From Puniceicoccaceae bacterium (GTDB lineage Bacteria > Verrucomicrobiota > Verrucomicrobiia > Opitutales > Opitutaceae): a DNA stretch of 47,070 nt. Positions 14,443-42,086 of the stretch are shown here, in pieces. The notes beneath the pieces are model-generated. The model worked only from the letters and a program-made list of their open reading frames with translations. It had not been told where the DNA came from and ran no database searches. A program made the translations under genes and the position numbers. The stretch lies in assembly GCA_007695295.1 (NCBI GenBank), contig REEB01000113.1, forward strand, positions 1 through 47,070, written 5' to 3'. Numbering within the stretch: position 1 is the first letter of the stretch; the number at the start of each line of letters is the position of its first letter.

Positions 14443-14461
14443 GTATCCTTTTTACAACTAC
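14443..14461. repeat. GTATY-N9-RATAC dyad, one-mismatch copy (14443)
   Basis: It reads GTATCCTTTTTACAACTAC: left half exact, right half CTAC instead of ATAC. It overlaps the oleD stop codon and lies seven bases from the terminator stem. It is a member of the dispersed family described in the findings. Confidence 0.4.
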
Positions 14462-15495
14462 ATTTCGTCGGGCCAGCCGGCCGTGAGCGTTTTCAGTCCC
14501 TCGGCCATGGTCACCCGCGGGCGGTAGCCCAGACAGCGCTCCGCGGCGGTGATCGAAAACCAGTGATCCTTGGCCAGCTCGGCGGCCACGAAGCGGGTCA
14601 TCGGCGGCTCCCCGCGCAGGCGCAGGACGGCCCAGACCGCCTCCGCCGCCGCGCCGATCCGCCGCGCCGCCTTCAGCGTCAGGCGCCGCGTCACCGGCGG
14701 CAGGCCCGCCCGCGGAAGCAGGTCGTTGATCCACTCCCAGAGCACCACCGGCTCCCCGTTGGTGATGAAAAAGGCTTTCCCTCCGGGGTGATCGTCGCCG
14801 GGCGGACGGTCCAGCGCGGTCTCCGCAAGGAGATGGGCATCGACGGCGTTGTCGATGTAGGTGAGGTCGACCCGGTTTTTCCCCTCCCCCACGATCCGCA
14901 GGCGGCCTTTCCGCGCCCGCTCCAGCACCCGCGGCACCAGGTGCGGATCGCCCGGCCCCCAGATCAGGTGCGGGCGCAGCGCCACCGTCCGGAGGTGACC
15001 GGGAGGCACGTCGTCCGCCTCCCGCACCATCCGCTCGGCCCGGGCTTTGGTCGCGGGATAATGGCAGGGAAAGTCCTTTCCATAAGGCAGGGTCTCGTCC
15101 GACCCGGAGAGGTCGCGGCCGTTGAAGACCACGCTCGGCGTACTCGTGTAAACCAAGCGCCGGACCAGAAAATCGCGGCAGCCGTTCAACACCGCCAGGG
15201 TCCCCTCCACGTTGACTTTGCGGTACTCCGCCGCCGATCCCCAGACCCCGACTTTGGCCGCAGTGTGAAAGACCGTCTCCATGCCTTCGCAGGCCGCCCG
15301 CACCGCGGCGGTCTCGGTCAGGTCGGCCCGCACCAGCTCCACCCCCAGGGCCGTCAGCTCCGGCACCTCCCGCCGCACCAGCGCCCGCACCGGCCGCCCG
15401 GCCGCCATCAGCCGCCGCACCAGCCGGCACCCGAGAAATCCAGTCGCCCCGGTCACCAGCACGGGTCCGGTCAATTGCTCCACAGAGGTGTTCAT
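14458..15495 (-). CDS. oleD: OleD-type NAD(P)H-dependent 2-alkyl-3-oxoalkanoate reductase
   Basis: OleD reduces the 2-alkyl-3-ketoacid made by OleA to the hydroxyacid used by OleC in long-chain olefin synthesis. The 345-residue protein has the nucleotide-binding VLVTGATGFLGCRLVRRL (residues 13-30), the OleD block YTSTPSVVFNGRDLSGSDE and the catalytic Tyr-Lys of HYPATKARAE. It belongs to the 3-beta-hydroxysteroid dehydrogenase/extended SDR group. Its ATG overlaps the oleC stop by four bases. Linkage with an OleC-type ligase makes OleD more likely than a generic sterol dehydrogenase. The last codon and stop are touched by a GTAT/ATAC dyad. Confidence 0.85.
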   Translation of the reverse strand: MNTSVEQLTGPVLVTGATGFLGCRLVRRLMAAGRPVRALVRREVPELTALGVELVRADLTETAAVRAACEGMETVFHTAAKVGVWGSAAEYRKVNVEGTLAVLNGCRDFLVRRLVYTSTPSVVFNGRDLSGSDETLPYGKDFPCHYPATKARAERMVREADDVPPGHLRTVALRPHLIWGPGDPHLVPRVLERARKGRLRIVGEGKNRVDLTYIDNAVDAHLLAETALDRPPGDDHPGGKAFFITNGEPVVLWEWINDLLPRAGLPPVTRRLTLKAARRIGAAAEAVWAVLRLRGEPPMTRFVAAELAKDHWFSITAAERCLGYRPRVTMAEGLKTLTAGWPDEM

Positions 15496-17186
15496 GACAC
15501 TTCCAACGGGGTTTTCCCAGCCAGTCGGCGCGCCAGGGCCAGGCGGTGGATTTTGGCATTGTGGCGCACGTCCACGGGAAAAGAGCGCACAAAGAAAAAC
15601 CGGCGAATCGGCTCGGTCTGCGGCTGTTGCCGCCCCAACGCCCGCAGCTCCCCGGCCAAGCCCAGCCGTCCCGTTCGCCAACGGGGATGGTGGCCGCGCT
15701 CCGGCTCCACCGCCAGCACCGGATGCAGCCGCCCTGCCGCATCGCTCCAGCCGATCAGGGCCGTCCGCGCCACCGCCGGGTGCGGATTGAACACCGCCTC
15801 GCAGCAATCGGTGTGAAAAACCGCGCCTTCCGCCTCGACCGCCTCCACCAGCCGCCCGCAGAACCAAAGGCGGCCGTTCTCATCCAGCCGCCCGAGATCC
15901 CCCATCCGGTGCCACACCTCCTCTCCGTCCATGATCTTGGCCCGCGCCGTCGCCTCCGGCAGCCGGTCATAGCTCCGCGTCACCGAAGGGCCGTGCACCA
16001 CCACTTCCCCCACTTCCCCGGCGGGCAGCACCCGCGCTTCGTTCCAGCTCGGCAAGGGATCGCGGCTGGCCGCCACGATCCGCACCCGCACCCCCTCCAG
16101 GGGCCGGCCCACGCAGGTTCCACGGCCCGCCAGCGTCGCCGCCGCCGTCTCCCCCAAAACTTCCGCCGCCTCGATCGTCGAAACGGGCAGCACTTCCGTC
16201 GCCCCGTAGGGCGAGTGCAGCTCCGCCTTCGGAAAGACCTCCCGCATCACGGCCATCAGCCCCGGCGGCACCGGCGCCCCCGCCATCAGGATCCGCCGCA
16301 CCCCCTCGAAACGCTCCCCGCGCACCCGCGCCGCCGCCGCGATTTTCCGCCACAAGGTCGGCGATCCGAAACTGTTCGTCACCCCGAACTGCCGGATCGC
16401 CCCCAGGATGTTCTCCGGCCGCACCGTCGCCGGCCGGCTCGGATTGATCTCCGGCACCACTGTGGTCATGCCAAGCGCCGGATTGAAGAGCGCAAACACC
16501 GGCAGCATCGGCAGGTCCACTTCGCCGGGCTCGATCCGGTAGGCCTCCCGGATCATCCGCACCTGCGCCTCAAACATGCCATGGGTATAGACGACTCCTT
16601 TGGCCGGGCCGGTCGAGCCGGAGGTGAACAGGACCGCCGCCGTCTCGTCCGCCCGGGTCGGCGCGGGAGCGAAGGGCGCCGGGCGATTAGTATCCAAATC
16701 TGAAATACGCTCGCCGCCGCCCACCCGCACCATCCCGGCGAGACCGGCAAAGCTCCGCCGGAAGAGGCGAGCCAGCACCACCGCCGGCCGAATCCCAACC
16801 AAAAACTCGGGGCCCGTGCGCCGCACCGATCGCAGAAAACCCCGCAGCCCCATCCCGGGATCGATCACCACCGGCACCGCCCCGGTTTTAAAGAGCGCAA
16901 AGCAGAGTGCTATCAACGGCAGCCCCGGCCGCACCATCAGCAGCACCCGGCTGCTCCGCCGGATCCCGGCCGCCTCCAGCCGCCACGCCCAAGCATCCGC
17001 CTCCGCATCCAGCTCCGCAAAACTTAGGTCGAGCGTGCGGATCACCCCACCTGGGCCGCGCCCGCTGGGTACCCGCAAGGCAAGGTTTGCGGGCTGCTCG
17101 CCGGCCACTCGCGGCAGATGCCGGGAGATGTTCGCTGTCTCCCGGGTGCCGGGACCTGCGTCGGACGCGGCGAGCGCTGCGGCCAA
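15492..17186 (-). CDS. oleC: OleC-type AMP-dependent beta-lactone synthetase
   Basis: OleC belongs to the acyl-CoA ligase fold and converts the OleD product to a beta-lactone, which OleB decarboxylates to an alkene. The 564 residues show VPVVIDPGMG (OleC-typical, near 110), the phosphate loop TSGSTGPAKGVVYTHG (near 190), PYGATEVLPVST (near 335) and GDLGRLDENGRLWFCGR (near 425). The start is TTG at 17186, with AGGGGGC about six bases upstream. It begins 10 bases after the small lipoprotein gene. oleA and oleB are absent from the window. One exact GTAT/ATAC dyad lies inside. Confidence 0.87.
   Translation of the reverse strand: MAAALAASDAGPGTRETANISRHLPRVAGEQPANLALRVPSGRGPGGVIRTLDLSFAELDAEADAWAWRLEAAGIRRSSRVLLMVRPGLPLIALCFALFKTGAVPVVIDPGMGLRGFLRSVRRTGPEFLVGIRPAVVLARLFRRSFAGLAGMVRVGGGERISDLDTNRPAPFAPAPTRADETAAVLFTSGSTGPAKGVVYTHGMFEAQVRMIREAYRIEPGEVDLPMLPVFALFNPALGMTTVVPEINPSRPATVRPENILGAIRQFGVTNSFGSPTLWRKIAAAARVRGERFEGVRRILMAGAPVPPGLMAVMREVFPKAELHSPYGATEVLPVSTIEAAEVLGETAAATLAGRGTCVGRPLEGVRVRIVAASRDPLPSWNEARVLPAGEVGEVVVHGPSVTRSYDRLPEATARAKIMDGEEVWHRMGDLGRLDENGRLWFCGRLVEAVEAEGAVFHTDCCEAVFNPHPAVARTALIGWSDAAGRLHPVLAVEPERGHHPRWRTGRLGLAGELRALGRQQPQTEPIRRFFFVRSFPVDVRHNAKIHRLALARRLAGKTPLEVS
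16690..16708. repeat. GTATY-N9-RATAC dyad, exact copy (16690)
   Basis: It reads GTATCCAAATCTGAAATAC inside oleC. Both half-sites are exact. On the coding strand it uses TCA, TTG and ACT where the gene otherwise favours G/C-ending codons. Confidence 0.6.
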
Positions 17187-22759: not shown

Positions 22760-24241
22760 TCAGGCGTGGTCCCAGGGCAGCCGCTCGCGCACCGGCCGGC
22801 GTTCCCAGACCGGTAACGGGTCGAAGAGTTTGCCGGGATTGAGAATGCCGTTCGGGTCGAGCGCCCGCTTCACCGCCCGCATCGCCCCGATCTCCGCCTC
22901 CGAGCGTGCCAGCCGCAGAAACGGCGTCTTGGCCAGGCCGATGCCGTGCTCGCCCGAGATCGCCCCTCCCAACGCGGCCACTTTTTTCATCAGCCGGAAG
23001 ACCGCCTTCTCCGCCCGGGCGCACTCCGCCGGATTGTCGCGGTGATACATGATGTTGACATGGAAGTTGCCGTCGGCGGCGTGGCCGAAGGTTGCGATCG
23101 GCAGCCGGGAGGACTTCCGCAGTGTCTCAAGAAAGGCCGCCAGGGTTTCGTAATGGTGCATGGGGACGACGATGTCTTCGTTCAGCTTGGCATCCCCGAG
23201 GGCAAACATCGCCCCCGAGCAGCCGCGCCGCACGCTCCAAAGCACCTCCGCCTCGGCCGGATCGGCCGCTTCGCGACAGGCCATCGCCTCCGCCGCCAGC
23301 CAAGGCCGTACCACCGCCAGTTGGGCTTCCACCTCCGCCGCAGATCCTTCCACTTCCACCAGCATCAACGGTCTGCCCGGCTTCTCCGCAAACAGCCGCT
23401 TGCCGCTCGCCCGCTCCGCACACCGCACGGAATAACGGTCCAGAAACTCCAGAATCGAGGGGAGGATCCGCCGCCCCAAAAGACGCCGGACCGCCCCCAG
23501 CGCCGCCGCTTCATCCGCGAACGCACCCACCAGGGTCGCACGCCGCTCGGGCCGCGGGATCAGCCGCAGCGTCGCCTCCGTAACCACCCCGAGCATGCCT
23601 TCGCTCCCAATCCAGAGGTCGCGCAGGTTGAAGCCACAGGCGTACTTTTTCACGTCCGCACCCCACTGCACGCGCTCCCCGGTGGGCAGGAACCCGCGCA
23701 GGGCCAAGACATAGTCCCGCGTCACTCCGTAGCGCCCGCCGCGCATCCCACCCGCGTTGCAGGCGATCGTCCCCCCGATGGTGCAGTATTTTTTCGAAGA
23801 CGGGTCGGGCGGATAATACCAGCCCGCCTCGGCCGCAGCCTCCTGCACCGCCTCCACCGTCGCCCCCGCCTGCGCCCGGGCCAGCCCCATCTCCGCATCG
23901 ATGATAATCTTCTTCCAGGCGGATAAATCCAGTATCCATCCTCCAAATACAGGTGCAGCCGAACCGGTCAGCGAGGAGCCCGCCCCGCGCACCGTCACCG
24001 GCACCCGGTGGCGGTTGGCCAGCTCGAGCACGGCGGCGATGTCCGCCTCCGTGCGGGGACGGACCACCGCACCGGGCTGGAATGCCAGTTTCATCCCGTC
24101 GAAGGAAGCCCGGTAGCGCTCCGCTTGGGAAAGCCGCACTTTGGTGCCGAGACGTTCCTGCAGCAGGCGCGTCGCCTTCCGGATGCGGGCGACGGGAAAG
24201 GCTTCGTTCGCAATGGGGTTCAGGTTTTCGGTTTCAACCAT
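22760..24241 (-). CDS. FAD-linked oxidase (GlcD/D-lactate dehydrogenase type)
   Basis: This 493-residue flavoprotein probably oxidises a 2-hydroxyacid such as glycolate or D-lactate. The N-terminal PCMH-type FAD domain has VTVRGAGSSLTGSAAP near residue 80, GGTIACNAGGMRGGRYGVTR near 145 and GSEGMLGVVTEATLRL near 205. The C-terminal domain has GHAADGNFHVNIMY near 395 and ISGEHGIGLAKTPFL near 440, with DPNGILNPGKLFDP at the end, all diagnostic of the GlcD/Dld group. No glcE or glcF is next to it, so a single-subunit enzyme is plausible. ATG at 24241 lies 22 bases inside the preceding transporter gene. It contains one exact GTAT/ATAC dyad. Confidence 0.88.
   Translation of the reverse strand: MVETENLNPIANEAFPVARIRKATRLLQERLGTKVRLSQAERYRASFDGMKLAFQPGAVVRPRTEADIAAVLELANRHRVPVTVRGAGSSLTGSAAPVFGGWILDLSAWKKIIIDAEMGLARAQAGATVEAVQEAAAEAGWYYPPDPSSKKYCTIGGTIACNAGGMRGGRYGVTRDYVLALRGFLPTGERVQWGADVKKYACGFNLRDLWIGSEGMLGVVTEATLRLIPRPERRATLVGAFADEAAALGAVRRLLGRRILPSILEFLDRYSVRCAERASGKRLFAEKPGRPLMLVEVEGSAAEVEAQLAVVRPWLAAEAMACREAADPAEAEVLWSVRRGCSGAMFALGDAKLNEDIVVPMHHYETLAAFLETLRKSSRLPIATFGHAADGNFHVNIMYHRDNPAECARAEKAVFRLMKKVAALGGAISGEHGIGLAKTPFLRLARSEAEIGAMRAVKRALDPNGILNPGKLFDPLPVWERRPVRERLPWDHA
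23932..23950. repeat. GTATY-N9-RATAC dyad, exact copy (23932)
   Basis: It reads GTATCCATCCTCCAAATAC inside the FAD-oxidase gene. On the coding strand it gives GTA, TTT, GGA, GGA, TGG, ATA, an island of rarely used codons. Confidence 0.6.
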
Positions 24242-25188
24242 GAGAGCAGCATGCCTCCGAGAAAGAGCTGGATGGGATGGTACAGCATCAGCGGCAGCAA
24301 GACGAGCGCCAGCGCCGGGTGCGAGGCAAAGACCAGGTTCGCCATGGGAACGCCCGCGGCCAGGGTCTTCTGGGGACCGCAGAACAACAGCACCATCCGA
24401 TCCTCCCGGGGAAAACCGATCCGTCGCCCGATGAGGGCTGCCCCACCGGTGGCGACTGCAAACAACCCAAGCGCCAGCAGGCCCGCCCACACCATCACAC
24501 CCGCATCCAAGACCCGCCACACACCCCCGTGGGCCGCGTTGGCAAAAGCCCCGTACACCAGAAAGAGAATCAAGGCACTGCCGCCGTTGGCCAGCAGTTT
24601 GCCCGCACGCTCCGCCCAAGCCCGCACCCACGGCCTCACCACCTGTCCGCACAATAAGGGCACCAGAATGAGCAGGGCCACCTCACCCATCACTGGGGCA
24701 AGACCCCGCTCGGCCGCGGCACCGAACCCCCGCCCCGCCAGCCAGAGCGGCGTGAGCACCACGCCCGCGAAATTGGCCAGGGTGCTGTTGAAGATCGCCG
24801 CGGCTGAGTTACCGCCGGCCAGGGCGGTGTAGACCGCCGAGGAGGCCACGGTGGTGGGGAGAACCGCCAAAAAGAAAAAGCCCACCGCCAGATCCGGCCC
24901 GACCAATGGAGCCAGCCAGCCTTCCACCAGCAGCCAAGCCGCCGGAAACAGCCCGAAAATGAACAACTGCACCAAGAGATGCAGCCTCCACTTCAGTATT
25001 CCTTTTATCAATACATCCGTGGAAAGCTGCAGGCCTTGAAGGAAAAAAATCACCACCACCGCGGCCGGCCCAGTCCACTCCAGCCGCAGGGTCCCGCCCC
25101 GCCGACCGCCCTCCGGCCAGAGCCAAGCCAGCACCACCGCCGCCAAAAGGCCGATCAGAAACCAGTTTTTGCGTGTCCAGGTTCTCAT
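24220..25188 (-). CDS. bile acid:sodium symporter (SBF-like) family transporter
   Basis: The 322 residues are nearly all hydrophobic, with about nine or ten transmembrane helices starting at residue 8 (NWFLIGLLAAVVLAWLWP). VIFFLQGLQLSTDVL near 47, LAVLPTTVASSAVYTALAGGN near 105 and LLFCGPQKTLAAGVPMANLV near 273 are typical of the SBF-like (YfeH/SLC10A7) branch. The transported substrate is unknown. The stop lies 22 bases inside the FAD-oxidase gene and the start overlaps the lnt stop by four bases, so all are one transcript; a hydroxyacid could link transporter and oxidase, but this is speculation. Confidence 0.86.
   Translation of the reverse strand: MRTWTRKNWFLIGLLAAVVLAWLWPEGGRRGGTLRLEWTGPAAVVVIFFLQGLQLSTDVLIKGILKWRLHLLVQLFIFGLFPAAWLLVEGWLAPLVGPDLAVGFFFLAVLPTTVASSAVYTALAGGNSAAAIFNSTLANFAGVVLTPLWLAGRGFGAAAERGLAPVMGEVALLILVPLLCGQVVRPWVRAWAERAGKLLANGGSALILFLVYGAFANAAHGGVWRVLDAGVMVWAGLLALGLFAVATGGAALIGRRIGFPREDRMVLLFCGPQKTLAAGVPMANLVFASHPALALVLLPLMLYHPIQLFLGGMLLSWLKPKT
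24996..25014. repeat. GTATY-N9-RATAC dyad, exact copy (24996)
   Basis: It reads GTATTCCTTTTATCAATAC inside the SBF-like transporter gene. The coding-strand codons are GTA, TTG, ATA, AAA, GGA, ATA, the most striking rare-codon island in the window. Confidence 0.65.
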
Positions 25189-26810
25189 GCGGAGTCCCCT
25201 GCCGCGGACCGAGCTTCCGGCTCGCGCCCGTGGAGCGCTCCATAGCCCAGCAGCACCAGCACTCCGCCCAGCCCCACAAACCAGTCGCCAAAGCGCACAT
25301 AGAAGGTCTCCACCCCGCGCCAGCGTTGGTCCCGCCAGACTTCCGCCACGCTCGCACCGCGAAAGTAGATGCTCCCGTCCGCATCGGTCAGAACGTGACG
25401 AATAACGCCGGACTCGTCGATCCAGCCGCTCCAGCCGGCATTGCCACAACGCAGCACCGGCCGCCGCGTCTCCACCGCCCGCAGCACCGAGTGGGCCGCA
25501 TGCTGGTAAGCGGCGCCCTCTTCCCCAAACCAGGCGTTGTTCGTCACCACCACCAACACGGCCGCCCCCGCCCGGACCGTCTCCCGCGCCAGCCGCGGAA
25601 AGACGTCCTCATAGCAGATCAGCGGGCCCGCCATGATGGTTCGGTCCGCCAAGGCAATCGGCAGCAGCACCGGCTCGGTTCCCGGGGTAAAATCCCCCCC
25701 TATGGGGACAAACTTCTCCAGCCACGGCAGCCAGCGCCGCAGCGGTACGTACTCTCCGAAGGGCACCAGATGGCGCTTTCGGTAGTAGGGCTCCGCGACC
25801 CCCAGGTCCGGCCTCACGAGCAGAGCCGCATTGCGCCAGAGGCTCTCCCCCTCTTCGCGATCCTCCACCGTGATGCCGCCCATCACCACCGGCACACCGA
25901 GCCCGGAGATGGTTTCCTCCACCCAGTGCCGCATCCCCGGGTGCCCCACGACTGCATAGGGGGTCACCGCCTCCGGCCACAGGATCACGTCCGGCTCCAA
26001 CGGCAACAGATGCTGGGAAACCCGGGTCAGCACCGCCAGGATGTCCGGAGCACTCGCCTCCTCCCATTTGATGTCCTGCGGGATGTTGGGCTGCATCAGA
26101 CCCACCCGCAACCACTCCTGTGCCTCTCTTCCGGCACTGTGACGGAAAAATCCGAACGACGCCAGAAACAGCAGCAGCAGCGCGAGATAGAACTCCGGCA
26201 CGAAACGGTTTTTGCGCCGCCGGAAGTAGTCCTCCAATCGACGAAAATATGCCGCCAGCCCCAGGTTAAAGACGATGAGCACAAAGGACACCCCCCAGGC
26301 CCCCGTCCAGGCCGCCGACTGCAGCAGGAGCGGCCGCTCCCACTGGCTCGCCGCCAAAGGCAACCAGGGAAAGCCGGTGAAAAGCCAGCTCCGGATCCAC
26401 TCCAGCACCACCCACAGCCCGGCCAGGCCCAAGGTCGCCGCCAATCGCCGCCCCAACGGCGCCTCCACCATCCTCGGCAGGGCCCAGCGCGCCGCCGCCA
26501 GCCAAGCCAGCGGAAAGAGCGCCAGCACCAGCGACAGCGCCACCATCCCCGCCGGCGTCACATGGCGTAACCAAAATATCAATACAATCCAAGCCGCCCA
26601 CGAGCCCACCCCCACCGCCGGCAAATACCAACGCCAGGGCGCTCCGAAAGCCGCCCAGGCCAGGGCCGGCACCACAAAGATGTAGGCCGCCTCGGCCACG
26701 TTCATCGGGGGGAAGGCCGCCGCCGTCAGCAATCCGGTCGCCACCGCCACCAAGAGGGCGATGCCGGCTTGGCCCGCCCCCCGGAGTCCGGCTGTCAGAC
26801 GCGCGATCAC
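25185..26810 (-). CDS. lnt: apolipoprotein N-acyltransferase
   Basis: Lnt adds the third acyl chain to lipoproteins in the inner membrane, needed for their passage to the outer membrane. The 541-residue protein has about six N-terminal transmembrane helices (to about residue 230) and a C-terminal nitrilase domain. The triad is visible: Glu in ILWPEAVTPYAV (near 278), Lys in YYRKRHLVPFGEYVPL (near 343) and Cys in GPLICYEDVFP (near 398). The start is GTG at 26810, 28 bases after the secA stop. Several lipoproteins in the window are plausible substrates. A one-mismatch GTAT/ATAC dyad lies inside. Confidence 0.95.
   Translation of the reverse strand: MIARLTAGLRGAGQAGIALLVAVATGLLTAAAFPPMNVAEAAYIFVVPALAWAAFGAPWRWYLPAVGVGSWAAWIVLIFWLRHVTPAGMVALSLVLALFPLAWLAAARWALPRMVEAPLGRRLAATLGLAGLWVVLEWIRSWLFTGFPWLPLAASQWERPLLLQSAAWTGAWGVSFVLIVFNLGLAAYFRRLEDYFRRRKNRFVPEFYLALLLLFLASFGFFRHSAGREAQEWLRVGLMQPNIPQDIKWEEASAPDILAVLTRVSQHLLPLEPDVILWPEAVTPYAVVGHPGMRHWVEETISGLGVPVVMGGITVEDREEGESLWRNAALLVRPDLGVAEPYYRKRHLVPFGEYVPLRRWLPWLEKFVPIGGDFTPGTEPVLLPIALADRTIMAGPLICYEDVFPRLARETVRAGAAVLVVVTNNAWFGEEGAAYQHAAHSVLRAVETRRPVLRCGNAGWSGWIDESGVIRHVLTDADGSIYFRGASVAEVWRDQRWRGVETFYVRFGDWFVGLGGVLVLLGYGALHGREPEARSAAGDSA
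26567..26585. repeat. GTATY-N9-RATAC dyad, one-mismatch copy (26567)
   Basis: It reads GTAACCAAAATATCAATAC inside lnt: left half GTAA, right half exact. Coding-strand codons include GTA, TTG, ATA, TTT and TTA. Confidence 0.45.
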
Positions 26811-26838: not shown

Positions 26839-29820
26839 TCACCGGCCGCAGCAGTGCTTGTATTTCTTGCCGCTGCCGCAAGGGCAGGGGTCGTTGCGGC
26901 CGACTTTCGGCACTTGGCGGCGGATTTCCACTTTGGGAAGCTGGACTTCGCGTCCGCCCGACCCCACCCCGGCCATGGCCGGCCGCGAAACCGGCTGCAT
27001 CCCTCCGGAACCGGTCACCGTGCCACCCTCGGCCGCCGCGCCTCCTTCCGACTTCGCCGCCCGCAGCATCATCTGCCGGATGTTCTCGATCGCAACCAAG
27101 TTGGAGGCGGAGCGGAAGAGGGTCGTGCAGAGCCGTCCGCGGATGTTGTTCATCAGCTCCTCGAAATACTTGTAGGCCTCGTTTTTATACTCGACCAAGG
27201 GATCTTTCTGACCATACCCGCGCAGCCCGATGCTGCGGCGCAGCTCCTCCATCTCGGTCAGGTGCTCCTGCCAGTGCGAGTCGATCGAATGCAGCAGGAT
27301 GTAGCGCTCGAGCTGGACGAAGGCTTCCTTGTGATCCGGCGGCTCCTTCAGCCGGTAGGCTTCGCGGACGCGCTCCATCACCATTTCAAGCGCGGCCGCG
27401 GGGTCCTTGCCTTGGAAGTCCTCCTCTTTGAGCGCGATCGGGAAATGCGCATTGATCCACTTCAGCAGGCCTTCGGTGTCGCCCGAGGTGGCGTCCTTGG
27501 TCCCGATGCCGGCGCCCCCGAGGCGCTCCTCCAACTCCTCTTCCACCAGCTCGAAAATCACTTCCCGGGGACTCTCGTGGGCAAGTGCTTCGTTGCGGAT
27601 GCCGTAGATGACTTCACGCTGCTGGTTGAGGACGTCGTCATACTGAAGCAGGCGCTTGCGGATGGAGTAGTTGCGCTGCTCGACTTTCTTCTGCGCCGAC
27701 TCGATCGAGCGGTTGAGCAGCGGGTGGGCCAGCTCCTCGCCGTCCTGCATCGACCGCTCCATGATCCGGCCAAGCGGACCGGCGGAGGCAAAGAGCCTCA
27801 TCAGGTCGTCTTCCAGCGAAATGAAAAACTTGGTCTGGCCCGGGTCTCCCTGGCGCGAACAGCGGCCGCGGAGCTGGCGGTCGATTCGTCGCGACTCGTG
27901 CCGCTCCGTGCCGATGACAAAAAGCCCCCCCAGCTCCCGCACCCCTTCACCGAGTTTGATGTCGGTTCCGCGGCCGGCCATGTTGGTCGCGATCGTGACC
28001 GCCCCGCGCAGGCCCGCACGGGAGATGATCTCCGCCTCCTGCTGGTGAAACTTCGCGTTCAGCACCGTGTGCGGGATGTGGCTGCGCCGCAGCATCCTGC
28101 TCAAAACTTCGGAGGCTTCCACCGAGGCCGTGCCCACCAGCACCGGAATGCCTTTGCGGTGCGCCTCCTCGATTTCCTTGATCGCCGCGTTGTACTTTTC
28201 GCGCCGGGTCTTGTACACCACGTCGTCATGGTCGATCCGGATGCTGGGTTTGTTCGTCGGGATGACGGAGACGTTGAGCTTGTAGATGTCGTGAAACTCC
28301 GTCGCCTCCGTCTCCGCCGTTCCGGTCATGCCGGCAAGTTTCTCATACATCCGGAAGTAATTCTGGATGGTGACGGAAGCGAAGGTCCGGGTCTCGCGCT
28401 CAATGGTGACGTTTTCCTTGGCCTCGACCGCCTGGTGGAGGCCGTCGCTCCAACGCCGGCCGGGCATGGTGCGGCCGGTGTTTTCATCCACGATCACCAC
28501 TTTGCCGTCCTGCACCACGTATTCCACGTCCCGCTCGTAAAGCGAGTAGGCGCGCAGCAACTGGCTGATCGCGTGGATCATCTCGCTGGTGTTTTCAAAG
28601 GACTCCTGGGCTTTCTGCTTGGCTTTGTCCTTCTCCTCGGGCGGCAGGGCGGGGTCCTTGTCGATGTCGATGAACATGCTCGGCAGATCCGGAAGGACAA
28701 AGCCGTCGGGATCGTCGGGACGAAGGAAGAGCCGTCCTTTTTCGGTCAGGTCGGCCTGGTGCTGCTTTTCATCCAACACGTAAAACAGCTCCTCTTTGAG
28801 GGCGAACATGCGCGTTTTGTTCATGTCGCCGTTCATCTCCAGCTCGTACTTGTCGAAGGCTTTCCGGTAGGCGCCGGTTTCGAGCAGGCGGAGGAACTGC
28901 TTGTTTTTGGGCATGCCCAGCTTCACCTGGAGCATGCGGACCAGAGCCTCATTGGTGTCGTCGGGTGAGCCGTCCTTTTCCAGCAGCTCCTTGGCCTCGG
29001 TGATAAGCTGGTTGCAGAGCCGCACCTGCTCGGAAACCAGCCGGGAGACGATCCCTTTGAGTTTGGTGAAGGGCTGCTCGCGCTCGATCGGAGCCGGACC
29101 CGAGATGATCAACGGCGTCCGCGCTTCGTCCACCAGAATGGAATCCACTTCGTCGATGATGACGTAGAAGTGGTCGCGCTGGACTTGGTCCTCCAGGCGC
29201 ATGGCCATGCCGTTGTCACGGAGGTAATCGAATCCGAATTCCGAAGCCGTGCCGTAGGTGATGTCGCACCCGTAGGCTTCGCGGCGCTTGGCCGGGGGCA
29301 TCTGGTTTTGGATGCATCCCACGGTGAGCCCGAGAAACTTGTAGATGTAGCCCATCCACTCCGAGTCGCGGCGCGCCAAGTAGTCGTTGACCGTCACGAG
29401 CTGGACGTTTTTCGAGCTGATGGCGTTGAGGTAGAGCGGCAGGGTGGCCACCAGCGTCTTGCCCTCGCCGGTCCCCATCTCCGCGATCCGGCCTTCATGC
29501 AGCGCGATGCCACCGATGAGCTGGACGTCGAAGTGCACCATGTCCCAGACGAGGTGATGGTCGCAGACGGTGATGGTCTGGCCAACCAGGCGGCGGGAGG
29601 CGTTTTTGACCACCGCGAAGGCTTCGGGAAGGAGGTCGTCCAGGCTTTCGCCCTGCCGGTGGCGCTCGCGGAGTTCCGTGGTTTTCGCCCGCAGGTCGTC
29701 GTTGGAAAGGTTTTGGTAGGTCTCCTCCAGAGCGTTAATCCGCTCCACGATGGGCTGGCACCGCTTGACGAACTTTTTGTGGTGCCGGCCGGAGAACTTC
29801 TTCAGCAAAAAGGAAATCAT
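26839..29820 (-). CDS. secA: preprotein translocase ATPase SecA
   Basis: SecA drives post-translational export through SecYEG. The 993-residue protein has Walker A within [19 protein letters not shown] (near residue 117), [18 protein letters not shown] (helicase DEAD region, near 222), [20 protein letters not shown] (near 500) and [12 protein letters not shown] (near 620). A C-terminal zinc-binding SEC-C motif, [16 protein letters not shown], has four potential ligands Cys-Cys-Cys-His/Cys. It is somewhat longer than E. coli SecA (901) through insertions around 250-330. It is divergent from the DUF1800 gene (181 bases apart) and is the first gene of the run secA-lnt-transporter-oxidase. Confidence 0.97.
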
Positions 29821-31513: not shown

Positions 31514-32758
31514 ATGAACGCGCCTCCCGTCCTGCCCTCCACCCGCCGCGAATTTCTCCGCCACGGTCTCCGCGGCGCCGGCCTCCTCGCCTTCAGCCGA
31601 CACCTGCCGTGGTTTCTTGCCGCCTCCACTCTCCGCGGCGCTCCGCGGCCGGAAAAGGACCGCAGCGTACTCGTGCTCGTTCAACTCGCGGGCGGTAATG
31701 ACGGACTGAATACACTCATTCCATTCGACAACGACCACTACCACCGCCTCCGGCCCACCCTCGCCCTCCGTTCCTCCGAGGTTCTCCCCCTCGCCGATGG
31801 CCTCGGGCTCCACCCCGCCCTCGCCCCCTTGCAGCCCCTGCTCGACGCCGGCCACCTCGGTTTGGTCCAGAATGTCGGCTACCCCAATCCCAACCGCTCC
31901 CACTTCCGCGCCATGGAAATCTGGGAAACCGCCGCCGAGAGCGACCATGCCCTCTCCACCGGATGGCTGGGACGCTATTTCGACAACACCTGCTCCGGCG
32001 GGCCCCATGACGAAAGAGCGCCGCGGGGCATTCACTTCGGGGCCGAACTGCCACCGTCCCTGCAAGCCTCCCGGCCCCAGGCCACCTTCGGCGTCACCCC
32101 GGCCATCGGCCGCCGCGGCCTGCGCGGTCCGGAGCGTCGCTTGGCCAAAAACCTCCTCGAAGCGCATCCTGCCGCGCCCGCCAACCTTGGCTTCCTGAGC
32201 CACACCATGATGGACGCCCTCGTCACCGAGGAGCGTGTCGGCCGCATCCTCTCCCGCTACCGACCGGACGCCGACTACCCCGCAAACCGATTTGCCCAAG
32301 CACTCCGCGGCGTCGCCGCCCTCATTCTCGCCGACCTCCCCACCCGCGTCTATTTTGTTTCCCTCGGCGGCTTCGACACCCACAGCAACCAAGCCGCCAC
32401 CCATGCCCGGCTGCTCTCGACCTTCGCCGCGGGCATGCATGCCTTCCAGCACGACCTCCGCCGCCAAAAAGCCGGTGACCGCGTCCTCACCATGACGTTT
32501 TCCGAATTCGGGCGCCGCGCGGCCGAAAACCACAGCGCCGGCACCGACCACGGCACCGCCGCCCCCCTCTTTGTCATGGGCGAATCCCTCCGCGGCGGCC
32601 TCCATGGCCACCCCCCCGACCTCGATCTGCCCCCCGGCGCCGATCCCGTCCACTCCACCGACTTCCGCTGCGTCTACGCCACCGTCCTCGAACGCTGGCT
32701 CGGCTGCCCCGCGACACCGGTCCTCGGCGGTGCCTTCACCCCGCTGGACTTCCTCTGA
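31514..32758 (+). CDS. DUF1501 domain-containing protein, Tat-exported
   Basis: The 414 residues begin with a twin-arginine signal (STRREFLRHGLRGAGLLAFS, Arg11-Arg12), then VLVLVQLAGGNDGLNTLIPF, the DUF1501 hallmark. Further conserved blocks are NPNRSHFRAMEIWETA near 130, FVSLGGFDTHSNQAATHARL near 282 and TFSEFGRRAAENHSAGTDHG near 330. The fold is related to the alkaline phosphatase/sulfatase group, but activity is unproven. It is paired with DUF1800 in one transcript. tatC lies 3.8 kb downstream. A one-mismatch GTAT/ATAC dyad is inside. Confidence 0.9.
   Translation: MNAPPVLPSTRREFLRHGLRGAGLLAFSRHLPWFLAASTLRGAPRPEKDRSVLVLVQLAGGNDGLNTLIPFDNDHYHRLRPTLALRSSEVLPLADGLGLHPALAPLQPLLDAGHLGLVQNVGYPNPNRSHFRAMEIWETAAESDHALSTGWLGRYFDNTCSGGPHDERAPRGIHFGAELPPSLQASRPQATFGVTPAIGRRGLRGPERRLAKNLLEAHPAAPANLGFLSHTMMDALVTEERVGRILSRYRPDADYPANRFAQALRGVAALILADLPTRVYFVSLGGFDTHSNQAATHARLLSTFAAGMHAFQHDLRRQKAGDRVLTMTFSEFGRRAAENHSAGTDHGTAAPLFVMGESLRGGLHGHPPDLDLPPGADPVHSTDFRCVYATVLERWLGCPATPVLGGAFTPLDFL
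31696..31714. repeat. GTATY-N9-RATAC dyad, one-mismatch copy (31696)
   Basis: It reads GTAATGACGGACTGAATAC inside the DUF1501 gene: left half GTAA, right half exact. Nearby codons GGA, ACA, ATT and CCA depart from the usual G/C-ending choice. Confidence 0.4.
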
Positions 32759-37428: not shown

Positions 37429-38550
37429 TCAGAATCGACCTGCGATGCTCCCGGTGTAGCCGGTTAGCTCGGCAAAGCCCCGGCCGATCACCCGCCCGTC
37501 CTCATCGAGCACATCCCCGGCGCCTTCCCAGTAGTCGATCCCCCCGGCCCCGCCGGTCAGCTCCTGGGCATCGGCCAGCGGACGAAACTCCAGCCGCCGG
37601 CTCAGGCCCGTCTCCGGATCTTTGCCTTCGAGCGCAAATTGCACCGGATAACGGCCACCGGTCTTCGGACTGCGCCACTCCCGCAGCGGCATCCAACGAA
37701 ACCCGTCCGCCTTCACCTGCTCGACCCGCCCTTCCCGGTCCACCCAGGCCAGGGTCGAAAAGGGATCGTCCGTCCCTTCCTCCCGCCGCAGCCGGTAGGC
37801 CATCACTTCCCGACCGTCCTCGAGCTGCATCGAAACCCAATCCCAACCGACCTGCCCCTCATCGAGCTGGCTGCTGCTGATTTCGTGGTCCATCCAGGCC
37901 TGGCCCCGCACCGGCCGGGCAGCCCCGTCTTCCTGTATCATTTCCCCTGATACTTCCAGCCGAGTGAAGGAGAGGTAGTAGCTGGCCGCCGAGAGGTCGG
38001 CGCTCTTGCGCGAAACGCCGTCCCGCCCAAACCGCACCAGCGGCTTGCGCGGGACCAACCGCAGCCTAAAGGAGACCACATCCCGCACTCCGCCCACCAA
38101 CTCCATCGCCTCTTCGGTTTCGTCCACCATCCGCAGGCGCCAGTTGCCGTTGGCGACATCGAGCCGCCCGACCCGGGCATGCGCATCCCAGCCGTCCCGG
38201 TTGAGGCGCTCCTGGTGGTGAAAGCGCCCCGTCTCCACCTCCAGCCAGGCCATGTGGGCCAGGAAGAGCTGGCTCCGCCCAAAGCCGTCGGCTCCATCAC
38301 CGCCAAGACCGGGGGGCGCCGCCGCCCGCCGGAAGAAGGTCGCCTGAAATCCGAAGCGCGCCCCCGCTTCATCCTCAAGGTGGCCGGTGACATACCACCA
38401 CTCGATCCTGAAGTCGGGGTGGCTGCCATGCCGTTGCGGATGCGGCAGCTCCCGGCCCGGCTCCGGCACTGCGAAGCCCCCCGCCGCCGCCGTCCCCCAG
38501 GACGTAAACACCAACCAGCCCAACAGCCCAATCAGCCTTCGAACAATCAT
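37429..38550 (-). CDS. AttH/CrtC-like secreted lipocalin-type protein
   Basis: The 373 residues start with a signal peptide (to about AAAGG, residue 24). IEWWYVTGHLEDEAGARFGF near 45 is the diagnostic motif of the AttH/CrtC (carotenoid 1,2-hydratase-related, lipocalin-like) family, and GQAWMDHEISSSQLDEGQVG WDW near 215 is its second block. AttH proteins usually sit beside an AttEFG ABC exporter; none is here, so it is an orphan. A lipid- or carotenoid-related substrate is plausible from the family only. ATG at 38550 gives the signal peptide directly. It converges with tatC (19 bases apart) and contains an exact GTAT/ATAC dyad. Confidence 0.85.
   Translation of the reverse strand: MIVRRLIGLLGWLVFTSWGTAAAGGFAVPEPGRELPHPQRHGSHPDFRIEWWYVTGHLEDEAGARFGFQATFFRRAAAPPGLGGDGADGFGRSQLFLAHMAWLEVETGRFHHQERLNRDGWDAHARVGRLDVANGNWRLRMVDETEEAMELVGGVRDVVSFRLRLVPRKPLVRFGRDGVSRKSADLSAASYYLSFTRLEVSGEMIQEDGAARPVRGQAWMDHEISSSQLDEGQVGWDWVSMQLEDGREVMAYRLRREEGTDDPFSTLAWVDREGRVEQVKADGFRWMPLREWRSPKTGGRYPVQFALEGKDPETGLSRRLEFRPLADAQELTGGAGGIDYWEGAGDVLDEDGRVIGRGFAELTGYTGSIAGRF
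37935..37953. repeat. GTATY-N9-RATAC dyad, exact copy (37935)
   Basis: It reads GTATCATTTCCCCTGATAC inside the AttH-like gene, with five-base perfect arms GTATC/GATAC. Coding-strand codons include GTA, TCA, GGG and ATA. Confidence 0.6.
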
Positions 38551-38732: not shown

Positions 38733-41700
38733 TTGAGCTCCAGAGAACCCAACCTTCCCGCTTTGCCCCGCCCCTCGCCACTGATCCACGTCCTCGCGGT
38801 CGCCGCCAAACTTTTCGCCACCGCCGCCTTTCTCCTCGCCTTCATTGTCTTCTGGGCCTGGTTCTTTCGCCCGCCCCAGATCCACGAGGTCCGCGAGCTG
38901 CCGCCCGAAGTCGTCGCCGAAGCCGAGGAGCGGCGCGCCACCCGCCTCGAGGTCGACGATCCACCGGTCCTTCACCGCACGGTCGACTACCGCGAGGGGC
39001 CCGCCGCCGCTTGGTGGCCCCGGCGACAGTCCCCCTTGCTTGATCCACTCGTCGCCGAGGGCAGCCTCCCCCCGGTCGCCGAACGCACCGGCCCGGAACC
39101 CGCCGTCATCGAGGGCATCGACGGCGTCGGTGAATATGGCGGCACCTGGTTCCAGGCCATCGGCTCGGAGTTCGATTTCACGCGCATTCGCGACACGCTC
39201 TCCGGCGGCGCCCTCGTCCGCTGGTCCCCCCACGGTCCGCCCATCGTCCCCCACATCGCCCGCGACTTCGAGGTCTCCGATGACCACCGCGTCTACACCT
39301 TCCACCTCCGCCGCGGGATGCGCTGGTCGGACGGCCACCCTTTCACCGCCGACGACCTCCTCTTCTGGTGGGAGTACGATGTCCTCCAGCCCGATTTCGA
39401 CCTCGCCGGCGACCCGCCCAACTTCATGAAAACCCGCGGCGAATACGGCACCGTCGAAAAAATCGACGACCATACCGTCCGCTTCTCCTTTCCCCACCCC
39501 AACGCCGCCTTTCTCGACCGTATCGCCACCTCTTCCGGTATCGATATGGTCAATACACCCGCCCACTACCTCCGCCGCTACCACCCGGTCACCGGCGATC
39601 CCGACGAGCTGCGGCGAGCCATGCGCGCCCTCCAGCTCCCCAACCCACGCAGCGTCTACGCCCGCATCAAAAACCCCAACAACCCCGAGCATCCCCGGCT
39701 CTGGCCCTGGGTCTACCGCACCCACAAGGCCACCCCGCCCTACGCCTTCGTCCGCAATCCCTACTACTTCGCCGTCGACCCCGAGGGCAACCAGCTCCCT
39801 TACATGGACCGCGTCCTCAAGGACGTTAAATCCGCCCGCATGATCGCCGGCCACGCCGCCGGCGGCGCCTACACCATTCAGCCCACCTACGTGGGATTCA
39901 ACAACTACACCCTCTTCATGACCCAGGGGCCCATCTACGGCTACCAGGTCTACCACTGGTACAACGCCAACGCCTCCGACTACCTCATCAACGTCAACGT
40001 CAACCGCCGCGTCACTCCGGGCGACCGCGAGTCCCGCAACAAGGCCGATCTGCTCAACGAGCGGCGCTTCCGCCAGGCCCTCTCCCTCGCCATCAACCGC
40101 CGCGCCATCATCGAGACCGAGTTCAGCGGTCTCGGCCGGCCCGCCCAAGCCGCCCCGCGCGCGGAATCCCCCTACCACCACCCGGAGCTGGAGGAGTCGT
40201 TCATCCGCTTCGACCCCGCACGCGCCAACCAACTCCTCGATGACCTCGGGCTCACCGAACGCGATCTCGACGGCTACCGGCTCTTCGCCGACGGCGCACG
40301 GATGCACTTTTTCATCAGCGTGGCCGCTTTCTTCAGCGCCGAGGTCGCCCAGCTCATCGCCGACGACTGGCGCGCCGTCGGCGTCCGCGCCACCGTGCGC
40401 GAACGCGCCCGTCAGCTCTTTTACGCCGAACTCGAAGGCCTCCAGCACGACTTCTCCATCTGGGGCAGCAACGATGAGTTCAACCCCGTCGTCCAGCCCC
40501 GCCTCTTCGTGCCCGTGGCCTGGGATTCCGACTTCGCCCGCGGCTGGTCGCGTTGGTACAACGCCGACGGGCTCTACGGCTCCGAGCGCGCCGCCCGCCT
40601 CCCCTTCGGCGGCCCTCCGCCCGAGCACCCGCTCTACGAAACCATGCTCATCTACGAGCAGGTCAAGGAAGCCCCCACCCTCGAAGAACGCATCGAGCTC
40701 ATGGACCGCATCCTCGCGATCGCGGCCGAGAACCTCTGGACGATCAGCATCGCCACCTCCCTGCCCACGCTCTTCATCGTCAGCGACGAGGTCCGCAATG
40801 TCCCCGCCACCGCCCTCTCCGGCTGGAACTACATCACCCCCAGCAACACCGGCATCGAAACCTATTGGCTGACCGAGTCGCGGGACAGCCCGGGAGCGAT
40901 CGCCGCCATGCGCCAGGAAATCCTCGAGGTCACGCCCTGGCCCCACGATGTCACCGGTACCGCCGTACCCCGCTCCCGCTTCGACCTCGCCTGGCTGGTT
41001 CGCTTCCTCATTTACGGCTCGCTCGTGGCCGGCCTCGCCCTCCTCGCCCTCCGCCACCCTTTCGTCCTCCAGCGTCTCGTCATCATGGTGCCGACGCTGC
41101 TCATCATCTCAATTGTCTCCTTCGTCATCATCCAGCTCCCGCCCGGCGATTTCCTCAGTTACCGCATCGTCCAGCTCCAGGAGTCCGGCTCCGAAATGGC
41201 GGAGGCGGAAATCCAGGAGCTGCGCGACCTCTTCCACCTCGAGGACGGTGCCTTCCGCCAGTACCTCCGCTGGATGGGGATGGACTGGTTCCTGACCTAC
41301 GACAAGGCGGACCGCGGCCTTCTCCAAGGCTACCTCGGCCGCTCCATGGATTCGCTCGAGTCGGTCAACATTATCATGGGCGACCGGCTCCTGCTCACCA
41401 TCCTCCTCAGCGCCGCCACCATCATCTTCACCTGGATGATGGCCCTGCCCATCGGAATCTATTCCGCCGTCCGCCAGTATTCGATCGGAGACTACATTTT
41501 CTCACTAATCGGCTTTCTCGGCATGAGCATCCCCGGGTTTCTGCTCGCCATCGTCATGATGTATTTGAGCCTCAAATACTTCAATCTCAACATCTCCGGG
41601 CTCTTCTCCCCCGAATACGCCGGCCAACCCGAGTGGACCTGGGGCAAGTTCGTCGACCTCCTCCAGCACCTCTGGCTGCCCGTCGTCATCATCGGGGTCT

Positions 41701-42086
41701 CCGGGACCGCCGGCATGATTCGGGTCATGCGCGGCAATCTGCTCGATGAACTCAAAAAGCCCTACGTCACCACCGCCCTCGCCAAGGGCGTGCGCCCCAT
41801 CCGCCTGCTCTTCAAGTACCCGGTCCGCATCGCCCTCAATCCTTTCATCTCCGGCATCGGCGGGATTTTTCCCGAGCTCATCGGCGGCGGCGCCATCGTC
41901 TCCCTCGTCCTCAGCCTTCCCACCATCGGCCCGCTCCTGCTCGACGCCCTCATGATGGAGGATCTCTACATGGCCGGCAGCATGCTCATGGTGCTCAGCC
42001 TGCTCGGCGTCATGGGCACGCTCGTCAGCGATCTCCTCCTCCTCGCCCTCGACCCGCGCATCCGGATGGAAGGAGGCACGCGATGA
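38733..42086 (+). CDS. fused oligopeptide-type ABC substrate-binding protein and permease
   Basis: In this 1117-residue fusion, a transmembrane segment (about 17-44) leads to a family 5 extracellular solute-binding domain (about 125-735). DHRVYTFHLRRGMRWSDGHP near 187 and RFRQALSLAINRRAIIETEF near 444 are its hallmarks. An extra helix at about 751-775 precedes a DppB/OppB-type permease (about 777-1117) with IVSFVIIQLPPGDFLSYRIV near 797 and the ATPase-contact region ALAKGVRPIRLLFKYPVR near 1016. The start is TTG at 38733 directly after an in-frame stop; TTG at 38763 is the alternative and neither has a good ribosome-binding site. Its stop overlaps the next permease gene (ATGA). The likely substrate class is peptides or oligosaccharides. 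It contains two exact dyads and one near copy. Confidence 0.9.
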   Translation: MSSREPNLPALPRPSPLIHVLAVAAKLFATAAFLLAFIVFWAWFFRPPQIHEVRELPPEVVAEAEERRATRLEVDDPPVLHRTVDYREGPAAAWWPRRQSPLLDPLVAEGSLPPVAERTGPEPAVIEGIDGVGEYGGTWFQAIGSEFDFTRIRDTLSGGALVRWSPHGPPIVPHIARDFEVSDDHRVYTFHLRRGMRWSDGHPFTADDLLFWWEYDVLQPDFDLAGDPPNFMKTRGEYGTVEKIDDHTVRFSFPHPNAAFLDRIATSSGIDMVNTPAHYLRRYHPVTGDPDELRRAMRALQLPNPRSVYARIKNPNNPEHPRLWPWVYRTHKATPPYAFVRNPYYFAVDPEGNQLPYMDRVLKDVKSARMIAGHAAGGAYTIQPTYVGFNNYTLFMTQGPIYGYQVYHWYNANASDYLINVNVNRRVTPGDRESRNKADLLNERRFRQALSLAINRRAIIETEFSGLGRPAQAAPRAESPYHHPELEESFIRFDPARANQLLDDLGLTERDLDGYRLFADGARMHFFISVAAFFSAEVAQLIADDWRAVGVRATVRERARQLFYAELEGLQHDFSIWGSNDEFNPVVQPRLFVPVAWDSDFARGWSRWYNADGLYGSERAARLPFGGPPPEHPLYETMLIYEQVKEAPTLEERIELMDRILAIAAENLWTISIATSLPTLFIVSDEVRNVPATALSGWNYITPSNTGIETYWLTESRDSPGAIAAMRQEILEVTPWPHDVTGTAVPRSRFDLAWLVRFLIYGSLVAGLALLALRHPFVLQRLVIMVPTLLIISIVSFVIIQLPPGDFLSYRIVQLQESGSEMAEAEIQELRDLFHLEDGAFRQYLRWMGMDWFLTYDKADRGLLQGYLGRSMDSLESVNIIMGDRLLLTILLSAATIIFTWMMALPIGIYSAVRQYSIGDYIFSLIGFLGMSIPGFLLAIVMMYLSLKYFNLNISGLFSPEYAGQPEWTWGKFVDLLQHLWLPVVIIGVSGTAGMIRVMRGNLLDELKKPYVTTALAKGVRPIRLLFKYPVRIALNPFISGIGGIFPELIGGGAIVSLVLSLPTIGPLLLDALMMEDLYMAGSMLMVLSLLGVMGTLVSDLLLLALDPRIRMEGGTR
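39538..39556. repeat. GTATY-N9-RATAC dyad, exact copy (39538)
   Basis: It reads GTATCGATATGGTCAATAC in the solute-binding part of the fusion gene. Codons GAT, AAT and ACA beneath it are unusual for the gene. Confidence 0.6.
41477..41495. repeat. GTATY-N9-RATAC dyad, one-mismatch copy (41477)
   Basis: It reads GTATTCGATCGGAGACTAC in the permease part of the fusion gene: right half CTAC. It lies exactly 85 bases before the next copy, about eight helical turns. Confidence 0.4.
41562..41580. repeat. GTATY-N9-RATAC dyad, exact copy (41562)
   Basis: It reads GTATTTGAGCCTCAAATAC, the most symmetric copy: eight-base perfect arms (GTATTTGA/TCAAATAC would need one loop base fewer; seven bases pair without strain). 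It lies in the permease part of the fusion gene. Confidence 0.6.

Follow-up and report, generated by a model that had tools for sequence, protein, structure and literature searches.

Dyads in the window

The window analyzed here is the whole stretch of 47,070 nucleotides at positions 1 to 47,070 of contig REEB01000113.1 (assembly GCA_007695295.1, forward strand), from a Puniceicoccaceae bacterium of the order Opitutales. Its subject is an interrupted palindrome of 19 bp, GTAT-Y-N9-R-ATAC, called the dyad in what follows. Six full copies were found in the window, within genes predicted by a simple codon-usage finder written for this analysis and not taken from a published annotation:

16690-16708: GTATCCAAATCTGAAATAC, register 1, in the AMP-binding enzyme gene 15492-17045, minus strand
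23932-23950: GTATCCATCCTCCAAATAC, register 0, in the FAD-linked oxidase gene 22760-24241, minus strand (Pfam FAD_binding_4/FAD-oxidase_C)
24996-25014: GTATTCCTTTTATCAATAC, register 0, in the SBF-like transporter gene 24220-25188, minus strand
37935-37953: GTATCATTTCCCCTGATAC, register 0, in the CrtC/lipocalin-type gene 37429-38469, minus strand
39538-39556: GTATCGATATGGTCAATAC, register 1, in the transporter gene 38763-42086, plus strand (solute-binding and permease domains)
41561-41579: GTATTTGAGCCTCAAATAC, register 2, in the same transporter gene 38763-42086, plus strand

A preliminary description of this DNA had named the copies at 23932, 24996 and 37935, had stated that they override a preference for G/C-ending codons, and had offered two explanations, selection on the DNA sequence or recent placement of the element inside genes. 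The three coordinates are exact, the dyads are real and far above chance, and the codons quoted for them are correct (GTA TTT GGA GGA TGG ATA at 23932, GTA TTG ATA AAA GGA ATA at 24996, GTA TCA GGG GAA ATG ATA at 37935). Its statement that the copies lie in different reading frames fails for these three, all of which read GTA...ATA in register 0 of minus-strand genes, and holds for the larger sample described next, where the 32 intragenic full copies fall 8/14/10 into the three registers and 16/16 by gene strand.

Most counts come from 409,807 bases of the genome of the window (the window plus contigs L017-L036), referred to as the 410-kb sample. As its contigs were picked from the listed site-bearing ones, it exceeds the genome-wide site density by a factor of about 1.5, and the enrichment ratios obtained from it are inflated about as much. 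A second set comes from the Pelagicoccus group, that is, the three genomes of DG1235 and two Pelagicoccus species.

Form and geometry of the dyad

The spacer length of the dyad is fixed. GTAT-N11-ATAC occurs 34 times in the 410-kb sample, whereas every other spacing from 0 to 30 is represented by no copy or one. Across the whole genome, GTATN{8,16}ATAC gave 280 matches and its reversed control 24; for GTATYN9RATAC the two counts were 185 and 1. At 45315-45332 the window also holds a near-copy, GTAT-N10-ATAC (GTATCCACCTGGTAATAC), with a spacer one base shorter; this spacing is not enriched (one copy in the 410-kb sample).

Among halves with one mismatch in the 410-kb sample, changes at the fourth base stand out: GTAG was seen 27 times and GTAA 11 times, where shuffles predict 2.1 and 1.6, and GTAC was not enriched (2 against 3.8 expected). 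As for the nine changes at G1, T2 and A3, GTTT was slightly raised (5 against 1.9) and the rest were near or below expectation. The shorter pattern GTA-N13-TAC is present in 83 copies, against 2 to 17 at eleven other spacings tested, and in 79 of them one or both halves are a perfect GTAT (34 T/T, 32 T/G, 11 T/A and 2 T/C at the fourth bases); the four without one are 2 G/G, 1 G/C and 1 A/C. After correction for sampling, the genome of the window would hold, very roughly, 600 full and variant sites. In the Pelagicoccus group 366 such sites were counted in 1.1 Mb, where about 36 intragenic ones were expected by shuffles.

At position 5 the two halves combine as though independent of each other. 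The base pairs C-G, T-A and C-A plus T-G numbered 11, 6 and 12 in the 410-kb sample, with 9.6, 5.3 and 14.2 expected, and 28, 12 and 46 in the Pelagicoccus group, with 31.0, 14.0 and 41.7 expected.

Five variant dyads lie in the window:

14443-14461: GTATCCTTTTTACAACTAC, one GTAG-type half, overlapping the 3' end of the gene 14458-15495, minus strand
26567-26585: GTAACCAAAATATCAATAC, GTAA-type half, in the apolipoprotein N-acyltransferase gene; a single variant that may be due to chance
27172-27190: GTAGGCCTCGTTTTTATAC, GTAG-type half, in secA; likewise a single variant, possibly by chance
31695-31713: GTAATGACGGACTGAATAC, GTAA-type half, in a DUF1501 gene; also a single variant that chance may explain
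41477-41495: GTATTCGATCGGAGACTAC, GTAG-type half, 84 bp from the full copy at 41561

Codon choice at the dyads

The preference for G/C-ending codons is borne out by a G+C fraction of 0.81 at third codon positions in the 410-kb sample. When synonymous codons were shuffled within each of its 315 predicted genes (200 shuffles), full dyads in genes fell from the 32 seen to a mean of 1.58 and a maximum of 6, and at ten control spacings the 0 or 1 copies seen compare with shuffled means of 0.2 to 0.9. Register 0 alone accounts for 8 copies against 0.03 expected. The same procedure gave 129 seen against 10.1 expected in the Pelagicoccus group.

The dyads are also found where codon adaptation is poorest. 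The lowest 1% of seven-codon adaptation windows holds 20 of the 70 full and variant sites, with 0.7 expected. A comparison with windows of equal AT content, of the kind that the preliminary description had called for, weakened the effect without removing it: the lowest tenth of codon adaptation takes in 38% of the full sites and 39% of the variants, with median percentiles of 0.12 and 0.29, respectively. Retention of the dyads despite the rare codons that they require is well supported. It shows that, within genes, some of the variation in codon usage is set by a DNA signal and not by translation. Lone GTAT and ATAC words in genes of the 410-kb sample are mildly rarer than in the shuffles (368 against 437 and 353 against 395).

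Conservation among relatives

The genomes of the Pelagicoccus group show 77-80% identity over 73-75 kb aligned per pair; only 54-60 kb were aligned before extension, and synteny stops beyond the extended blocks. The counts that follow are not independent, owing to shared ancestry and to pairs being counted in both directions. Of 135 aligned comparisons of full or variant dyads, 85 retained the dyad; when the same halves were taken at 12 other spacings, the figure was 13 of 131. Full sites were still sites in the other genome in 34 of 48 comparisons in both directions (17 of 26 in one direction). In a first pass over the inner 100 kb, 36 of 46 half-sites were kept inside dyads and 440 of 1065 outside them.

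At third codon positions 85 of 110 core bases were identical (77%), whereas 47.6 (43%) were expected from the same base at the same codon position elsewhere; the corresponding figures were 119 of 126 against 108.6 at first positions and 93 of 100 against 93.2 at second positions. The codons of the dyads hence resist drift among these three genomes, as an orthologue comparison proposed in the preliminary description had been meant to reveal, and together with the loss of sites in synonymous shuffles this gives good support to selection at the DNA level. Its other explanation, recent placement inside genes, finds no backing: the copies have no spacer sequence in common, no gap was seen at the site in the 26 one-direction orthologue comparisons within the aligned blocks, and most full sites are shared between genomes, as counted above.

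Three copies of the window were compared with aligned relatives, which lack the site in each case. At 23932 two of 16 loci do not cover the position and the site is absent from all 14 that do; these encode GG-x-V-L and have a GTN valine codon where the window has an ATA isoleucine codon, so that in this one case the site goes with a changed amino acid. Three aligned relatives lack the site at 24996, and three lack that at 16690.

Placement in genes and along chromosomes

The dyads are placed with little regard to gene boundaries. In the 410-kb sample 32 of 34 full sites are intragenic at a coding density of 91%, and 6 of 77 full and variant sites are intergenic where 9% of the DNA is noncoding. 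The Pelagicoccus group has 53 of 366 sites between genes (14.5%) with about 13% noncoding DNA. Divided by fifths of the gene, the positions are flat in the 410-kb sample (14/13/14/14/16), and in the Pelagicoccus group, a set which includes three stretches picked for site clusters, they are fewer at the ends (9/24/25/24/14).

Along the chromosome the sites are evenly spread. Kolmogorov-Smirnov tests on sites among the matches listed gave p values of 0.86 for DG1235 (96 sites in the first 3.1 Mb), 0.93 for G013 (43 sites) and 0.53 for G020 (38 sites). Several dyads within hundreds of bases to a few kb of each other were noticed at L055 (1462 and 1768), L056 (8597 and 8887) and L052 (8243-13146), in stretches picked for that property.

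Genomes that carry the dyad

A genome was called enriched if it had 20 copies or more and if these were no fewer than five times the reversed control. By this definition 82 of the 233 Opitutales genomes in the sample are enriched, in 10 of 24 families, including 29 of the 73 sampled from the family of the window. Pelagicoccus mobilis KCTC 13126, for example, has 595 copies, and G003, a single contig of 5,957,605 bases, has one. In a sample of 288 genomes from the phylum, 43 in the order and 245 outside, a single genome of the 245 qualified, G110, with 51 matches. Horizontal transfer of the dyad to G110 was considered and rejected, as its copies belong to another palindrome, whose matching arms are longer: of 11 dyads in 119 kb, 8 contain CCGTA-N13-TACGG and 8 contain TCCGT-N15-ACGGA. 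This palindrome, which surrounds GTATC...GATAC in loci L069-L074, resembles repetitive extragenic palindromic (REP) elements, and the other genomes of the same genus in the sample have few matches.

Presence and absence meet within genera; g61, g62, g27, g22 and g231 are mixed in this way, and so is g68, whose small genomes measure 1.6-2.1 Mb. Five species (G209, G234, G397, G430 and G456) carry 103, 96, 62, 59 and 49 copies among them, and three (G384, G435 and G460) have 7, 6 and 1. Genus g68 is a good contrast for finding the protein that recognizes the dyad. The pattern GTA-N13-TAC was not seen in about 150 kb of G384 and is present 32 times in about 198 kb of G209, against 5 to 13 at nine other spacings.

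We also looked for a switch of specificity in place of loss. No other dyad as strong as that of the genome of the window was seen in G003 (100 kb), G113 (64 kb, outside the order) or G384 (about 150 kb), a weak test on small samples. Its sensitivity is low: in about 198 kb of the site-rich G209 the dyad ranked only seventh among 4-mer dyads (9 against 1.3 expected). Moderate signals were CTGC-N1-GCAG in G003 (30 against 5.8) and CCCCG-N6-CGGGG in G113 (12 against 0.7).

Proposed function

On balance we favor the view that the dyads are operators of one homodimeric, sequence-specific DNA-binding protein of Opitutales, predicted here, with a chromosome-wide role. Two half-sites that are rigidly spaced and behave independently suggest a homodimer, each subunit of which would read one half-site, GTA(T>G>A)Y, the two halves being held on a rigid 19-bp frame with half-site centers 14 bp apart. 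The even spread, the indifference to promoters and gene ends and the selection on single sites suggest that the protein most likely acts on the whole chromosome, for instance in segregation, in the architecture of the nucleoid or in some similar role, and not on single promoters. Sites would arise and vanish by point mutation, would be maintained by selection stronger than the preference among synonymous codons, and would probably decay once the protein is lost.

Several observations weigh against this interpretation. The half-site is less strict in the Pelagicoccus group, where a C at the fourth base shows mild enrichment too (27 against 10.9 and 44 against 9.0). The picture of a simple free spacer is complicated by identities at full sites of 90% in the core, 81% in the spacer and 73% in the flanks; either the spacer is partly constrained or the sites lie in better conserved stretches. 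Intervals between sites are near random (coefficient of variation 0.91), so that nothing like regular domain boundaries was seen in the 159 intervals. The system is also dispensable, since 151 of the 233 Opitutales genomes live without enrichment.

The last of these points is that no recognizing protein emerged from the candidates checked, namely a ParB_N-domain protein, ParB_N paralogues, ComEC and the neighbors of sites. Family f1 was divided for this purpose into site-rich genomes (at least 100 copies, n=12) and site-poor ones (15 copies or fewer, n=20), with 5 intermediate genomes set aside. The first candidate is encoded by a gene whose start codon is abutted by a dyad, at -19 to -1, in the three Pelagicoccus-group genomes and G019, all of one genus (L037:16664-17531, L046:10515-11382, L047:13187-14054 and L075). 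It scores below the cut-offs of the models (17.2 of 26.3 bits for Pfam ParB_N; 19.1 of 315 bits for the best NCBIfam model, that of Noc), and its best match in the PDB has an E value of 0.13. This protein is missing from the genome of the window and present in 5 of the 12 site-rich and 2 of the 20 site-poor f1 genomes. It is absent from the site-rich G000, G002, G005, G007, G012, G013 and G014 (118-514 copies, 7 of the 12 in f1) and present in the site-poor G006, G026 and G047, the last from another family. Because of this patchy presence it cannot be the general recognizer and was rejected as such. The dyad at its start codon is likely a repression site, and the gene may be a target of the recognizer.

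Paralogues with a ParB_N domain (PF02195) do not track the sites either: a single match, no more and no less, was obtained in 10 of the 12 site-rich and in 16 of the 20 site-poor f1 genomes. Apart from the ParB_N-domain gene, no recurring DNA-binding gene was noticed beside site clusters (L052, L053, L056) or intergenic sites when N-termini were read by eye and no family library was run.

Comparison with known systems

Sequence-specific systems known to mark the whole of a bacterial chromosome are few. Noc with its NBS sites, SlmA with its SBS sites and MatP with matS are among those closest to the one proposed here: dispersed palindromic operators of a dimeric protein that acts on the chromosome and not on promoters. 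A pair of half-sites 14 bp apart is not known as the motif of Noc, SlmA or MatP. Noc is a paralogue of ParB, and the dyads differ from its sites in that no second ParB-like protein tracks them, as the single ParB_N match in most site-rich genomes indicates. The matS sites lie within ter (PMC7394560), whereas the dyads are spread evenly in DG1235, G013 and G020. The outer TATC...GATA arrangement of the dyad is shared with the HipB sites, TATCCN8GGATA, and with the lambda operators. HipB and lambda cI type operators (XRE family) differ in being few per genome, located at promoters and specified at their inner bases. For LexA, several hundred sites would be unusual. The dyad lacks at least one defining feature of the Noc and matS sites, of the uptake sequences and of the HIP1 element considered below; its profile fits none of these, nor that of REP sequences.

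Dispersed chromosome-wide DNA motifs exist, and we know of none with the form and range of this dyad. No paper on the motif or on its strings was found in the open-licence literature searched, which is not proof of absence. We judge the chances somewhat better than even that this is an undescribed system, in which a dimeric protein occupies gapped 19-bp operators, most of them in genes and numbering from several hundred up to perhaps two thousand. Selection on these operators would be strong enough to prevail over the choice of codons, and now and then perhaps over that of amino acids, and the whole system would have been lost in several lineages. As the dyad is readable from the sequence, is kept against codon preference and is present or absent within one genus, the protein and its function can be sought by comparison.

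Alternative explanations

An unlikely alternative, and the one that survives best, is that the dyads are operators of a global transcription factor working largely from inside genes, by roadblock, antisense transcription or internal promoters. The anatomy of the dyad looks like a dimeric operator, and the copy next to the start codon of the ParB_N-domain gene, which occurs there in four congeneric genomes, is a plausible repression site. The concentration between or upstream of genes that characterizes promoter operators is lacking among the dyads, which, as shown above, are enriched neither in intergenic DNA nor at gene starts. Some bacterial transcription factors, e.g. PhoB, bind mostly inside genes (PMC10294691); ordinary intragenic sites would nevertheless not be expected to override codons or to exceed matched bases in conservation.

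It is doubtful that the dyads are DNA uptake or self-recognition sequences for natural transformation. They share with the DNA uptake sequences and uptake signal sequences of Neisseria and Haemophilus the hundreds of copies, many of them inside genes, the even spread and the lineage-specific occurrence with loss (PMC2346458 and PMC1939737). The known uptake sequences are non-palindromic and in excess in noncoding DNA (PMC1939737), and neither property was seen for the dyads, of which 53 of 366 are intergenic where about 13% would be expected. The competence channel protein ComEC does not clearly separate the genomes: 11 of the 12 site-rich members of f1 have it, and so do 16 of the 20 site-poor ones. 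In addition, among halves with one mismatch only the changes at position 4 are strongly enriched, which also speaks against an uptake sequence.

Similarly improbable is that a DNA methyltransferase or a defence system with bipartite, Type I-like specificity recognizes the dyad. Its interrupted palindromic form and the adenine in either half would suit such an enzyme, and presence that varies among the species of one genus recalls mobile modification systems. About ten specified bases are long for Type I-like enzymes, however, restriction sites tend to be avoided and not enriched, and Type I specificity changes fast whereas the dyad is the same throughout an order. The cyanobacterial HIP1 element (GCGATCGC) offers a parallel, as a highly iterated palindrome that is low in some relatives and whose function is debated. 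HIP1 is a contiguous octamer tied to GATC/CGATCG methyltransferases (PMC4390886); the dyad differs in having 19 bp, an interruption and a free spacer.

Insertion of a mobile or REP-type palindromic element is very unlikely. REP elements with GTAG tags have been reported inside genes of Opitutus terrae (PMC3733652), and the inner pairs 6-14 to 9-11 of the dyads are complementary slightly above chance in the 410-kb sample (45 of 128 against 33.4). In the larger Pelagicoccus-group set their complementarity does not exceed chance (128 of 528 against 139.4). The complementary stems and family-wide sequence that PMC3733652 gives for REPs are both wanting in the dyads, whose spacers have no sequence in common and whose orthologous positions show no gap in the aligned blocks. 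The REP-looking copies of G110 belong, moreover, to a different and longer palindrome. REPs spread by insertion, and the dyads bear no sign of this.

An RNA hairpin or other signal in the mRNA is equally far from probable: although the imperfect half is mostly 3' on the coding strand (33 against 6 in the 410-kb sample and 124 against 57 in the Pelagicoccus group), this asymmetry is due to stop codons and codon use, since both orientations are enriched once these are modeled (16.4-fold for 5' against 10.7-fold for 3', and 7.4 against 6.6), and the dyads tolerate changes that would break a stem, namely GTAG-/CTAC-type halves and, in 3 of 32 and in 20 of 132 cases, a C..A pair at the fifth position.

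A transporter gene with two full dyads

The predicted gene 38763-42086, which contains the full copies at 39538 and 41561, joins a solute-binding (SBP_bac_5) and a permease (BPD_transp_1) domain. These domains are usually found on separate proteins, and the gene could represent a fusion.

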